Origin: Phormidesmis priestleyi Ana
GTDB lineage: Bacteria > Cyanobacteriota > Cyanobacteriia > Phormidesmidales > Phormidesmidaceae
NCBI GenBank assembly: GCA_001314865.1
Contig: LJZR01000011.1
Span: forward strand, 1-64,000
Length of the DNA stretch: 64,000 nt
Direction: 5' to 3'
The notes under the pieces are model-generated. The model was not told the DNA's origin. It was given only the letters and a program-made list of their open reading frames with translations, and made no database searches. Numbering within the stretch: position 1 is the first letter of the stretch; each line of letters begins with the position of its first letter. This document shows, piece by piece, positions 55,091 through 62,334 of the stretch. The translations under genes and the position numbers were made by a program.

Positions 55091-55501
55091 TGCTACAGAC
55101 TATATCAAAGTAACCCCGGTGAACTAGCTGTTCGGCCCTAGTTGCTAACTAGCTGTTAAAAGGATAGATTGCCCAATCATTTTCACCCATTCAAAAAATG
55201 ATTCAAAAAAGTCGATAGATAATCATTTGTACTATAAGCAAGGCATTAGCTGCCCTATACTTCTGTACTAAAAACGCTGTACTAAAAGCTCTTTGCTAGC
55301 CATCCCGCACTGGCAGCCAGTACAGCACCGGCACTCAGAAAGGCGTCATAGCAATGATGCTGGCCCTCAGAAAAAATAAAAGTTGATTTTTCAGAGATAT
55401 ATAGTACACTTGTACCAAGCACTGAAAGAAGAGATTTCGTTTCACTTCTGCGAACTCAATAGTTCGTTTTTGTGTGCCGTTTGCGCCCTCGCATTTTGGA
55501 T
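55091..55501. other. 411-base gap with a LexA-like site
   Basis: It holds repeated TGTACTA motifs (55228-55285 region) and a LexA-like palindrome at 55403. No gene was found; a 46-codon minus frame is doubtful. Confidence 0.5.
55403..55416 (+). promoter_or_regulatory. candidate LexA box
   Basis: AGTACACTTGTACC fits the cyanobacterial LexA consensus RGTACNNNDGTWCB at every position and lies 86 bases upstream of the next ATG. One site alone is weak evidence. Confidence 0.4.
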
Positions 55502-56881
55502 ATGAAGTCATCTGATATGGAACTACAGGCTATTCGAGAAAAATTGCAGCAGCTTCAGGCAGAGCCGCCAGCCGCTGAGGCACTGGCTTTGCCGGCACCA
55601 TGGTCTGACCCCAAAAACAATGCTGAGCCTGCACCTCACGCAGCCGGGTCACAGTCTATACCAGTGGCTCATAACCCACAGTTTGTTCAGTCACTGGCCT
55701 ATCAGCAGGGTTCGCACAGCATTTCCCCACGCCCAGATCAGCAACTCAACAATCCACGACTCAACAATCCAGATCAGCAGATCAACCAAAGTCCTCAGGA
55801 AAAAGCAATTGAGGCACTTAAGCAGCGATCGCTTGGTCATGATCAAGCAGCGATCGCACGAATGGATCATCTAGTCGCGCAAGAAATTTATCGGCTAGAA
55901 GTGCAGGCTAACAATATTAATGAGCGATCGCGTCAGCAAGCCACCGAGATTATGGCGATTAAGCGCTCGGCACAGCAGGCGTCGGTTGGTCTGCGTCGCC
56001 AAGGCATTCACGACCACCCCCAGCTCACAGCCATCATTCAATTTCTCGCAGACCATCAGTCCGCAGCGGTGCCCTATATCGAGCGAGATTCGCAAGGCCA
56101 CTTCACACTCGCCTACGACACTATCGACTTTCACCAAGCTGAACAAGAAGCCATAGACACTGCCCATGCCCTCAGAAACCGTCGCCAAGCTTCTCACGCC
56201 GTACCCATTTCTCAGCCGCCGCATCAAGCGCTGTTCACGCAACCTATTGCATCATCCGCTCAGCACAATACCCTAACCCCTCCGAGAAACAACTACGAAA
56301 CCGCTAAAAGCTGGATAGAAGCCGCTTGCAACTTTGCCGTTGAAGGGACATCTGAGCTCATTCATACTTTCAGCAGCGGGAGCGCGAGTGATCTCACTGA
56401 AAAAGGCAAACGTCGAAGAAGGCGTCGAAATACGGTCACGATAGAAGGAGACTATCCCGAAACCAACAGTTTGAATCACGATGAATGGCCAGAAGGCATT
56501 GAAGAAGGCTTCGGACAAGCAGGTTTATCTGCCATGGGTGGATTTTCCATGGGTAGCTCTGACATGGGTAGTTCTGACATGGGTAGTTCTGACATGGGTA
56601 GTTCTGACATGGGTAGTTCTGACATGGCAGAGGGCTACTTGAACCATCAGTTTTCATGGCTAGATGGCACTATTTGGTTTAGCTCAGCCGCGATCGCTCG
56701 AATTATGATTCAGGCGATCGCAGCCAGCTATCCCATTGTCCAAACGCTTTCTCTGATGGGGTTAGTCGGCGTAATCGTGTTTGCACTCTACAAAGTCATC
56801 ATTTCAAAATCCACCGATTACAGCCTGGTATATCGGCTTTGCATTGGCATGATGGGCTTATTCTTAGCCGGTCTTTTCTGA
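55502..56881 (+). CDS. hypothetical protein with coiled coil and C-terminal membrane spans
   Basis: 459 residues from ATG 55502 (GTG 55472 is an alternative). Parts: Ala/Pro/Gln-rich N-terminus; helical region about 95-160 (AIARMDHLVAQEIYRLEVQ); a hydrophilic middle with KRRRRRN; a five-copy MGSSD repeat; and two hydrophobic segments (about 390-425 and 435-459). I know no family. It is probably anchored in a membrane with the N-terminal part in the cytoplasm. Confidence 0.6.
   Translation: MKSSDMELQAIREKLQQLQAEPPAAEALALPAPWSDPKNNAEPAPHAAGSQSIPVAHNPQFVQSLAYQQGSHSISPRPDQQLNNPRLNNPDQQINQSPQEKAIEALKQRSLGHDQAAIARMDHLVAQEIYRLEVQANNINERSRQQATEIMAIKRSAQQASVGLRRQGIHDHPQLTAIIQFLADHQSAAVPYIERDSQGHFTLAYDTIDFHQAEQEAIDTAHALRNRRQASHAVPISQPPHQALFTQPIASSAQHNTLTPPRNNYETAKSWIEAACNFAVEGTSELIHTFSSGSASDLTEKGKRRRRRRNTVTIEGDYPETNSLNHDEWPEGIEEGFGQAGLSAMGGFSMGSSDMGSSDMGSSDMGSSDMGSSDMAEGYLNHQFSWLDGTIWFSSAAIARIMIQAIAASYPIVQTLSLMGLVGVIVFALYKVIISKSTDYSLVYRLCIGMMGLFLAGLF
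56549..56623. repeat. 15-bp in-frame tandem repeat, 5 copies
   Basis: ATGGGTAGTTCTGAC-type units at 56549, 56564, 56579, 56594 and 56609 encode MGSSD. The first copy differs by one base; the rest are identical. Confidence 0.95.
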
Positions 56882-58131: not shown

Positions 58132-59784
58132 ATGCTGAAATCTCCCTTACTTTTTGCCATTAGCGTACTAGTCGCATTGTTGAGCTGGACACCTAAAGCC
58201 ATTGCCTCAGAAGAGCTAGTAGGACTTAGCTTTGATCTTCCTCCAGCTAGCCAAGTATCTAGCCCAATCGCATCCATTCAAACAGCCGTAGCCCCTAATC
58301 AGACCAAGCTACAGATCGAGCCATTAATTCGACCGACTCAGCCCCTGCCACCGCTAACCGAAACTAGTCTTGGCACGCAGGCTAGCTTACAGACCACCAC
58401 ACCAACGGACATCGGCGTTCACTTCCCAGAAAATTCTCTACAGCTACCGGCCCAAGTAACGGAAGAAACAGTCGCGACTGAGACTGTTGACTTAAATATT
58501 CCTAGGCAACTCTCACAAGTTAACGAACAAGTTGAAAAACAATTTAACGAAACAACCGAGGCAGCTGTCGAGGCTCCTTCAAAGACTCTGAACTATAGCT
58601 CTTTAAAACTAGATGACTGGATTTTTGAAGGTGGAACACAGTCTTTAGTGGCACATACTGTTGGGAGTGCTGAAGGAACCAGACAGTCAGATGGCACCAA
58701 AACCAATGCTTACTACGGTCATGTTGATCCAGGCAATGGCGTATGGAACATTGGCACTTTTTCCTACCAGCATGAAGCTAGCTCGCCAGAGGAAGCTGAC
58801 GAAAAGCAAATAAAGCGCCTCAAATATCAAGGATTACAGCTAGAAGCACAAGCGGCAGAGCAAGGCATTGAGCTGTCTTTAAACGAAAAGCTGAATGGCC
58901 TAGATCTTGCAAATCAGGCTCCGCTAGCAGCCCTTGGGGAAGGTGGGTATATCGAGCGGCTAGCGCAGGCACGTAAACTAAATTTGCGTAATGAAGAAGA
59001 AGCGATCGCATGGGCTCGCACTCATTCCTATATAGATCCTAATACACGCACTTGGGATGCACCTGGTCTAGGCAATACGCTCTATGGCATCAGCAAAGAC
59101 CAAGAACGGCGCATGGCAGCAATAGATGAGGCGCTACGCGCTTATAACCAGTCAGGCGAACAAAAACTAGCGTTAGCAGGTCTTCAGCACATCACACTAG
59201 AAAAGTCTGAACTCTACAAACCTGCATTTGACAACATCGCCGTAGACAATATCGCCGTAGAATTTGAACTCAGCACAGCCAAAGGACCGGTGGAGCTGAT
59301 CGAGCCCCATAACGATAGCGACCAAGCTAATGCGGTGACTGCTAGTCACAATGCATTGGCAACCATCACACCTCTCAATAATGTCAAAGAACCTGCAGAA
59401 GAGGTAGAAGTAGAAGTAGAGGTAGAGGTAGAAGTAGAAATCGAACCAGAGCCAGAACCAAAGACAGTCAGCAAGATCCCAGAAAGCAGCATCCCCGCAA
59501 GCCGCATTCTAGACACCCATCCCCCAAACATCAGTACGCCAGAAACCTCAAGCTCAGAAGGTCTGTTAGAAAAACTATTAGCAACACTGCCAAAAACAAC
59601 GCCAACCGGAGATACTGAAGCTACGGCAGAGGAAAGTTCTCAGCCTCAAGATTTCAGCACAGAAATTTCGATTCCAGCACCGCTGACGGATACCACTACG
59701 CAAACTAATGATGCCTCAGCACCTAGCCAATCACCTAGCCAATCTTGGTGGAGAACCGAAGACAAGGTCATTCGCAGCAAGTAA
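58132..59784 (+). CDS. exported protein with a lysozyme-like-looking domain
   Basis: 550 residues. A signal peptide (to about 25) precedes a Pro/Thr/Gln-rich region. A domain of about 200 residues (from about 160) follows, with VGSAEGTRQSDG, YYGHVDPGNGVWNIGTFSY and LGNTLYGISKDQERR. Then comes a repetitive Val/Glu stretch and a low-complexity tail. The Glu in AEGT followed by YGHxDPG resembles some phage or bacterial muramidase-like segments, but I cannot assign an activity. It is probably periplasmic or outside the cell. Confidence 0.6.
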   Translation: MLKSPLLFAISVLVALLSWTPKAIASEELVGLSFDLPPASQVSSPIASIQTAVAPNQTKLQIEPLIRPTQPLPPLTETSLGTQASLQTTTPTDIGVHFPENSLQLPAQVTEETVATETVDLNIPRQLSQVNEQVEKQFNETTEAAVEAPSKTLNYSSLKLDDWIFEGGTQSLVAHTVGSAEGTRQSDGTKTNAYYGHVDPGNGVWNIGTFSYQHEASSPEEADEKQIKRLKYQGLQLEAQAAEQGIELSLNEKLNGLDLANQAPLAALGEGGYIERLAQARKLNLRNEEEAIAWARTHSYIDPNTRTWDAPGLGNTLYGISKDQERRMAAIDEALRAYNQSGEQKLALAGLQHITLEKSELYKPAFDNIAVDNIAVEFELSTAKGPVELIEPHNDSDQANAVTASHNALATITPLNNVKEPAEEVEVEVEVEVEVEIEPEPEPKTVSKIPESSIPASRILDTHPPNISTPETSSSEGLLEKLLATLPKTTPTGDTEATAEESSQPQDFSTEISIPAPLTDTTTQTNDASAPSQSPSQSWWRTEDKVIRSK

Positions 59785-60710: not shown

Positions 60711-61847
60711 TTAGCTCCGAATCTGCACAGGCATTACTAGATAGGTAATATTAGGCCCGCCTAGCGGTGTCAGCACAGAAGGACTCGTCGCCGTATTGCA
60801 TTGAATCTGAATCTCAGCGGTAGGCAGTGCTTTTAGCCCTTCTAGCAAGTAGCGCACGTTAAATGCAATTTCTAAATTCTCACCCGTTACCTGAGCCGGC
60901 AAGTTTTCGAGCCCACTGCCGACTTCTTGAGCCTCGACCGATATTGCCAGCGACTGAGCTGAGCTGTCAATGGAGAGCTTGACAATATTATTGCGCTGAT
61001 CAGCCATCACGGCAATTCGTTCAAGTGAGGCAGTGAGTTGCTTGCGGTCAACGGTCAGCTGCCGCTCAAACTGCTTAGGGATCAGCTGACGATAGTTAGG
61101 ATACTGACCTTCGAGCAGGCGAGTTGTAATGCGCTGCTGCCCTAGGTCAAACACCACCTGGGTTTGATCGAGCTGAAAAGACACAGGCTCATTACTAGGG
61201 TAAATCTGCAAAATTCGCTCTAGCTCACGGAGTGCTTTACCAGGAATTGTCACGTTCATATCTACCGATGAAGCAGGGGCACCGGATTCATCAACTGTTT
61301 TCACCACGGCCAAGCGGTGGCCGTCTGTTGCAGCAAACTCTAAGCTTTCAGAATCAGCTGTCAAATGCACTCCAGTTAACACCTGCTTAGTTTCATCTGA
61401 GCTAGTGGCGAACAACGCACCTCTGAGTCCCTCTATCAAAGCCTCGGCAGCCACTTTAATCGGTTCAGAAGCTTCTACCTGAGGGAGCTGAGGATAGTCT
61501 TCAGCGCTTAGTCCGCGAACCTGATAGCGACCAGACGAACAAGAGAGCGTAACCACTGGCTCGTCGTCATCCTCAGCAATGTTGATGTCTTCGTTAGGCA
61601 GTCTAGAGACAATATCGCCGAGCAGTTTAGCCGGTAGTGTCAATGAGCCACTTTCTTCAACCTGTGCAGCAAAAGCAGTTTGAATGCCCAATGTTTCATC
61701 AAAGCCAATGAGGTAAACCTGCTGCGTATCGGTTCTGGCGGTTACGAGCACATTGCCTAGGACTGGCTTACTTGGCCGCGAGGGCACCGCCCGACTGACT
61801 AAAGAAAAATGTGTATTGAATTCGGCTTGAGGGCAGCTAAATTTCAT
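60711..61847 (-). CDS. dnaN: DNA polymerase III beta subunit (sliding clamp)
   Basis: The ring-shaped processivity clamp. 378 residues, three similar domains. Start MKFSCPQAEF, and LTGVHL, ATDGHRLAVV, EGQYPNYRQLIP and C-terminal YLVMPVQIRS are family landmarks. Start ATG 61845-61847. It is downstream of the origin and reads away from it on the same strand as dnaA. Confidence 0.96.
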   Translation of the reverse strand: MKFSCPQAEFNTHFSLVSRAVPSRPSKPVLGNVLVTARTDTQQVYLIGFDETLGIQTAFAAQVEESGSLTLPAKLLGDIVSRLPNEDINIAEDDDEPVVTLSCSSGRYQVRGLSAEDYPQLPQVEASEPIKVAAEALIEGLRGALFATSSDETKQVLTGVHLTADSESLEFAATDGHRLAVVKTVDESGAPASSVDMNVTIPGKALRELERILQIYPSNEPVSFQLDQTQVVFDLGQQRITTRLLEGQYPNYRQLIPKQFERQLTVDRKQLTASLERIAVMADQRNNIVKLSIDSSAQSLAISVEAQEVGSGLENLPAQVTGENLEIAFNVRYLLEGLKALPTAEIQIQCNTATSPSVLTPLGGPNITYLVMPVQIRS

Positions 61848-62264
61848 CGTGCAGTGTTTAGAAAGGATTCAAAAGGGGCTAGCCAAGATGCCCAATACTA
61901 TCACTCTACAAGCCCCAATCTTTTCTGTTTAGATTGCTCAAAAAATGATTTTTCTTCGCGCTTCTAAAGACTATTTTTCTTTAAAAATCTATTTAAAGTA
62001 GTAGTAGTAGGGGCTGTGGAAACTGTGGAAAATTCAGTTAGTTCCTTAGTCTTATTAGGATATAGTCATTTTTAAATTGTGGAAAACATGTGGAAAACAC
62101 ACTGCTTTTTCCACAGCCCTTACTATGAAAGAATTCTTTTCCACATTGAGTTACAAGTTTTCCCCGTGATCTCCACAGGTTTTCCACAGGAAAATCAGGG
62201 TTTTCCACAGGAAAATCCTGCCTATTTATTTACCTTTCTTTAGGAAAAACTCAAGTTTTAGGCC
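61848..62264. other. oriC: replication origin oriC
   Basis: The gap between dnaN and dnaA carries seven exact TTTTCCACA boxes: three on the minus strand (62024-62032, 62078-62086, 62089-62097) and four on the plus strand (62107-62115, 62137-62145, 62180-62188, 62201-62209). A near match lies at 62015-62023. Immediately left of it is GGGC (62011-62014), then TAG x4 (61999-62010), then AT-rich DNA (about 61920-61998). TTTTCCACA is the DnaA box reported for cyanobacteria, and the order box, GC-rich spacer, trinucleotides, AT-rich region is that of the bacterial basal unwinding system. Confidence 0.92.
61996..62023 (-). promoter_or_regulatory. DnaA-trio next to a DnaA box
   Basis: Read on the minus strand: GTTTCCACA (box, one mismatch), GCCC, then CTA x4 and CTT, then AT-rich sequence. 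The complementary strand shows 3'-GAT repeats, the DnaA-trio described in Bacillus subtilis, where DnaA loads onto one strand to open the origin. Opening would proceed toward dnaN. Confidence 0.85.
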
Positions 62265-62307
62265 AAACATAAAGCCCTCTGTGATTTTCACAGAGGGCTT
62301 TATGTTT
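62265..62307 (-). terminator. terminator-like hairpin after dnaA
   Basis: A perfect 20-bp inverted repeat (AAACATAAAGCCCTCTGTGA, 62265-62284, and its complement 62288-62307) with a 3-base loop, 28 bases past the dnaA stop. The tail TTTATGTTT is only moderately U-rich. It would keep dnaA transcripts out of oriC. Confidence 0.75.
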
Positions 62308-62334
62308 GATAGGAAGAAGAAAAAGGGTTGATAG

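Follow-up and report, generated by a model that had tools for sequence, protein, structure and literature searches.

A candidate basal unwinding system at a Leptolyngbya-like chromosome origin, with a DnaA-trio conserved across most cyanobacteria and lost from some origins that keep their DnaA boxes

The intergenic region between dnaA and dnaN in the window (the whole 64,000-nt stretch of DNA analysed here) very probably holds the basal unwinding system (BUS; DnaA boxes plus a DnaA-trio) that opens the chromosome origin in a Leptolyngbya-like cyanobacterium. The element is an ordinary, very clean BUS. What is new is how deeply it is conserved and where it has been lost: most of the phylum carries it nearly unaltered, and in some lineages, among them ones for which DnaA-independent replication is reported, it has decayed and the boxes remain.

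Both genes lie on the minus strand at the right end of the window, with 487 bp from the dnaA stop to the dnaN start (Table 1). A total of eight DnaA boxes (≤1 mismatch) were found between them, as expected for the origin setting proposed in the first-pass annotation, and cumulative GC skew along the 157.6-kb contig reaches its minimum at ~64 kb; apart from this contig-wide minimum, skew near the trio site is weak. By sequence, the region thus has the features of a chromosome origin.

Table 1 Features of the predicted origin in the window. Lattice positions are relative to the first trio base.
Feature	Position	Strand	Basis or remark
dnaN (sliding clamp), downstream of oriC	60711..61847	-	ORF; match in 155/156 cyanobacterial genomes
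AT-rich DNA past the trios, putative spread of opening	61938..61998	.	77% A+T
Fifth trio-like unit, imperfect, 3'-GAA-5'	61996..61998	+	sequence; run = 5 N-A-N units
DnaA-trio, four exact 5'-TAG-3' (3'-GAT-5'), TAGTAGTAGTAG; expected DnaA-filament strand	61999..62010	+	sequence; in-phase conservation
Spacer GGGC, 4 nt, GC-rich	62011..62014	.	sequence; relatives G[GC]C[CT] in dnaN-sense
Trio-proximal DnaA box GTTTCCACA (+ strand: TGTGGAAAC)	62015..62023	-	box at -13 in 52/67 genera
Anchor DnaA box, perfect TTTTCCACA (+ strand: TGTGGAAAA)	62024..62032	-	box at -22 in 58/67 genera
DnaA box TTTTCCACA, lattice -76	62078..62086	-	box scan
DnaA box TTTTCCACA, lattice -87	62089..62097	-	box scan
Outward-facing DnaA box, lattice -105	62107..62115	+	box scan
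Outward-facing DnaA box, lattice -135	62137..62145	+	box scan
Outward-facing DnaA box, lattice -178	62180..62188	+	box scan
Outward-facing DnaA box, lattice -199	62201..62209	+	box scan
Perfect 21-bp inverted repeat, 3-nt loop, terminator-like, between dnaA stop and oriC	62264..62308	.	likely dnaA terminator
dnaA	62335..63708	-	window I199, N196, R211, E237, R273 = B. subtilis I190, N187, R202, E228, R264

On the minus strand the core reads TTTTCCACA GTTTCCACA GCCC CTA CTA CTA CTA CTT TAAATAG, with the perfect box 13 nt and the imperfect box 4 nt from the trio. The four perfect TAG repeats, the GC-rich four-base spacer and the AT-rich DNA just beyond were recognised in the first-pass annotation, and its comparison with the Bacillus arrangement holds in order, orientation, spacing and strand. 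The range that it gave (61996-62023) covers the trio, the spacer and one box and omitted the perfect co-oriented box that adjoins them. The box that it counted as having one mismatch does so against the cyanobacterial TTTTCCACA, given as the consensus of the phylum in PMC6323995 and PMC4674748, but has two against the E. coli TTATCCACA. PMC8287927 defines a BUS by a run of three or more 3'-NAN-5' units with one or more boxes no farther than 16 nt away; in the window, a box (≤2 mismatches) lies within 16 nt of the trios with a second box near, and the box-proximal run comprises four GAT and one GAA. Because boxes, trios, spacing and DnaA residues (N196, replaced by D, excepted) fit, the element agrees with every sequence-testable definition of a BUS.

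The best PDB match of the window DnaA is 8btg, a structure of B. subtilis DnaA, and nine of the ten trio-contacting or oligomer residues of the B. subtilis protein are kept (E183, N187, I190, I193, R202, K222, E223, E228, and R264, in B. subtilis numbering), so that the ISM and arginine-finger residues of a cognate DnaA are present. The tenth, the B. subtilis N196 that contacts T, is D in the window DnaA, as it is in every one of the 42 cyanobacterial DnaAs compared. Residues including E183, N187, R202 and E228 capture the G and A of each trio, and the third base is flanked by I190 and I193 (PMC10721633).

What the analysis shows directly is the sequence and geometry of the element, its conservation, its movement together with the origin and the conserved DnaA residues; from these we infer binding, filament strand and opening site. 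DnaA would anchor on the tandem boxes (62032-62015) as double-stranded DNA, and further subunits would extend the filament along the plus strand in the direction of dnaN, where each pair of subunits would capture the G and A of a single 3'-GAT-5' unit, from 62010 down to ~61996. Capture of the trios would stretch and separate the strands, opening would spread into the AT-rich stretch at 61938-61998, where the helicase would be loaded, and the remaining six boxes would serve as a conserved lattice for recruiting or regulating DnaA.

Among known systems, the BUS of B. subtilis (boxes 6/7 and DnaA-trios; PMC6669920, PMC10721633, PDB 8btg) resembles the window, as judged from published descriptions, in having a pair of co-oriented boxes, a short spacer rich in GC, trios of the 3'-GAT-5' type and a location between dnaA and dnaN, and it differs in that the window boxes are of the TTTTCCACA type and the N196 contact is D in cyanobacteria. 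A second counterpart lies within the phylum. The genome G030, which we take to be S. elongatus, carries the same element, TTTTCCACATTTTCCACAGCCCCTACTACTACTG, upstream of dnaN, and this stretch presumably corresponds to the S. elongatus scaffold used in PMC8287927. According to the same study, purified DnaAs, that of S. elongatus included, unwind their cognate scaffolds only when both boxes and trios are present, and unwinding by the S. elongatus protein in vitro requires boxes, trios and the arginine finger, with ATP dispensable, unlike in B. subtilis. The first-pass remark that such elements are little documented for cyanobacteria is therefore only partly right, since BUS elements have been predicted throughout bacteria and one has been reconstituted in vitro with S. 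elongatus DnaA (PMC8287927). Predicted cyanobacterial oriC regions in DoriC and Ori-Finder 2022 likewise show a TTTTCCACA box cluster beside dnaN, and DnaA-trios are tagged in their records, but the accessible parts of these sources give no description of phylum-wide trio conservation or of trio loss with boxes kept (PMC6323995, PMC10225481).

To profile conservation, the intergenic region was compared with relatives using BLASTN, and the matches contract with distance to the trio and box core; in G004, from another family, query positions 160-192 (window 61999-62031) were 100% identical. Under a relaxed rule, the element was detected in 111 of 149 dnaN-upstream regions (68 genera, 25 families). 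Genus-weighted information was 1.49-2.0 bits for each of trio bases 1-10, comparable to the box cores, and 0-0.65 bits past position 14. The pattern TTTCCACAGNCYCTACTACTAC matched 114 of the 156 genomes of the class with ≤2 mismatches, almost always once, against two matches for the reversed control; only such matches were counted, because three mismatches were noisy and gave many reversed-control matches. Outside the GTDB order of G121 (the order of the Nostoc and Synechocystis lineages), the same rule detected the element in 113 of 142 genomes, and inspection by eye of the remaining non-matching genomes (G035 excepted, and with G134 scored trio-less by the pattern scan alone) found a recognisable trio, some degenerate, in all but eight (f15, n = 7; f23, n = 1). 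The alignment of related origins proposed in the first-pass annotation thus came out in its favour, as TAG phase and spacing are conserved across cyanobacteria, lost cases apart. The trio is as conserved as the boxes across the phylum, in phase and at about one copy per genome.

In f25, f32, and other genomes, the element was detected at an oriC distant from both dnaN and dnaA, where the box lattice around it is the same or similar; it thus moves with the origin, not with either gene. We guess f25 to be Thermosynechococcus-like and f2 to be of the Prochlorococcus type. A scan of 84,980 bacterial and archaeal genomes with the exact pattern found dnaA and/or dnaN within the same stretch of ≤8 kb in 108 of the 118 matches listed, which included Streptomyces, Selenomonas, Clostridia, Acidobacteria, and cyanobacteria. 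The scan independently supports the broad BUS conservation described in PMC8287927, where a BUS was predicted in 85% of 2070 species.

Slippage can generate trinucleotide runs, and the other DnaA boxes of the region lack trios (among the eight, only the tandem pair at 62015-62032 has more than one CTA alongside), so the TAG run might be a functionless repeat that came to lie by a box through slippage or chance. However, TAGTAGTAG is expected only 0.24 times across the whole window, and dinucleotide shuffles of the 487-bp region gave at least four CTA in 0 of 5000 cases (a local chance of a four-CTA run below 1 in 5000) and three or more CTA no farther than 16 nt from a box in 1 of 5000. With a single copy per genome, and with phase and 4-nt spacing unchanged in relatives of 25 families, some with genomes of only 1.6-1.8 Mb, a chance origin has a practically negligible probability. 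Conservation of the run could instead reflect control of dnaN, as a promoter or regulator site and not an unwinding element, given that its usual place is 80-600 bp upstream of dnaN and that dnaN transcription leads out of the region. Yet 12 genomes have the element and box lattice with neither dnaN nor dnaA within 3 kb, in G017 the element follows dnaA with dnaN far away, and phase and orientation are fixed to the boxes whereas the distance to the dnaN start varies; we consider this role extremely unlikely. A scan for sigma-70 promoters returned no match.

The trio might also be a relic in an origin that opens at another AT-rich site, by E. coli-like single-strand recruitment or a recombination-dependent start, as the trio is gone from lineages of the Nostoc/Synechocystis order, for some of which DnaA-independent replication is reported. 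Against this, nearly every member of the window's family retains the trio, at times in degenerate form, which is unlike a relic, and the trio residues of DnaA are conserved. A relic is thus very unlikely, and an active BUS is the reading that we prefer for the window.

Across the phylum the trio is not universal, because some cyanobacteria having DnaA and a box cluster lack it. In the order of G121, the element was detected in ~25 of 232 genomes (≤2 mismatches), some probably by chance, and DnaA in 196 of the 232. Within this order f26, the only well-sampled family to do so, keeps the element in all of its 14 genomes, and none was detected in f31 (n = 21) or f30 (n = 19); f33 and f42 are likewise counted among the trio-less families. 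The closest chains to the PsaA of f31 are 6tcl/6jeo, which we take to be from Nostoc/Anabaena 7120, and those to the PsaA of f30 are 4kt0/5oy0, presumably from Synechocystis 6803, and we assign the two families to these lineages on that assumption. Six trio-less origins (G121, G100, G108, G115, G089, and G051) have the tandem boxes and the -76/-87 pair in their usual places within ~1 bp and most outward boxes near theirs, with unrelated bases at the trio site, e.g., TTTTCCACAGTTTCCACA ATTT TTAACCTAGG in G121. Box spacing is largely retained in the anchored trio-less origins; the dnaA-less G142 and G149 have also lost the box cluster at dnaN. A CGATCG / GCGATCGC (HIP1-like) site occupies the trio position in the trio-less G033, G046, G115, G307, G352, G185, and G222. 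G177, from the same order, has a perfect trio element (C120:4323-4357) and no Bac_DnaA match, which may reflect incompleteness of the assembly (95%).

Mapped onto a DnaA tree built from 41 cyanobacterial rows, presence or absence of the trio requires seven changes, and well-supported branches force at least two. A change in DnaA accompanying trio loss was considered and rejected, as 16 of 19 trio-less genomes have all trio-reading residues intact and the three exceptions, all from f15, are too few. These are G107 (L335), G134 (L340), and G059 (L330), with R202H, R202Q and I190V, respectively; changes of this type at essential trio contacts were found in none of 23 trio-bearing genomes.

DnaA-independent replication has been reported for Nostoc PCC 7120, Synechocystis PCC 6803, and Synechococcus 7002, replication in S. 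elongatus is DnaA-dependent, and dependence was lost repeatedly (PMC7198777). Relatives that keep the boxes but not the trinucleotides, named in the first-pass annotation as the case that would count against it, do occur, mainly in the Nostoc/Synechocystis order, where such DnaA independence is reported (PMC7198777). The match between trio loss and DnaA independence is suggestive but not proof, with few species bench-tested, trios kept in f26, and the losers in f15 and f23 outside the bench set. Given the reported DnaA-free replication in Nostoc and Synechocystis and intact trio-reading residues in most trio-less DnaAs, trio decay could mark the loss of DnaA-driven opening; because 16 of the 19 proteins keep those residues, these origins may also have a diverged trio or open at another site. 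Tentatively, and with somewhat less than an even chance of being right, we propose that selection acts differently on the trio and on the box lattice, as on two separable modules: once DnaA has ceased to fire the origin, the trios would be the first to decay, and the boxes would remain in register because of a second role, in regulation or timing, that DnaA still has at the old origin. If so, trio integrity would be a sequence-level marker of DnaA-driven initiation.

For the origins of most of the cyanobacterial phylum, the conserved element fixes where opening is predicted to start and which strand is predicted to carry the filament, and the prediction extends to genomes with moved origins or uninformative GC skew. 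Trio-less origins, with boxes and DnaA kept, are natural mutants that could reveal what DnaA does where it is not needed to start replication, a question left open by PMC7198777.

Beyond the core, boxes recur at -22, -13, -76/-75, -87/-86, ~-105 (outward), -135, -156/-167, -178, and -199 from the first trio base, and those of the window are at -22, -13, -76, -87, -105, -135, -178, and -199. An inverted BUS-like copy at 62107-62125 was rejected as a second BUS because it has one perfect CTA only, which is not conserved in relatives. Two exact 19-bp copies of GGTTTTCCACAGGAAAATC, 21 bp apart, lie at 62178-62217, each with an outward-facing box. The palindrome GTATWWATAC is absent from the window and may be a second conserved origin element in relatives (e.g., L087, L089, L064, L045, and L283), where it lies at -117 (±2), a few bases past the -105 outward box. 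Exact copies occur in 39 of the 106 origins at dnaN that bear a trio, spread over 11 of 25 families, against a rate of 0.0002 in shuffled sequence, and Nostoc-like trio-less origins have a near-match, GGTAATTATACTTA. Elsewhere in the window, the C-terminal half of an ORF at 55472-56881 contains a run of SSDMG repeats, and another ORF at 58132-59784 has EV/EP repeats.
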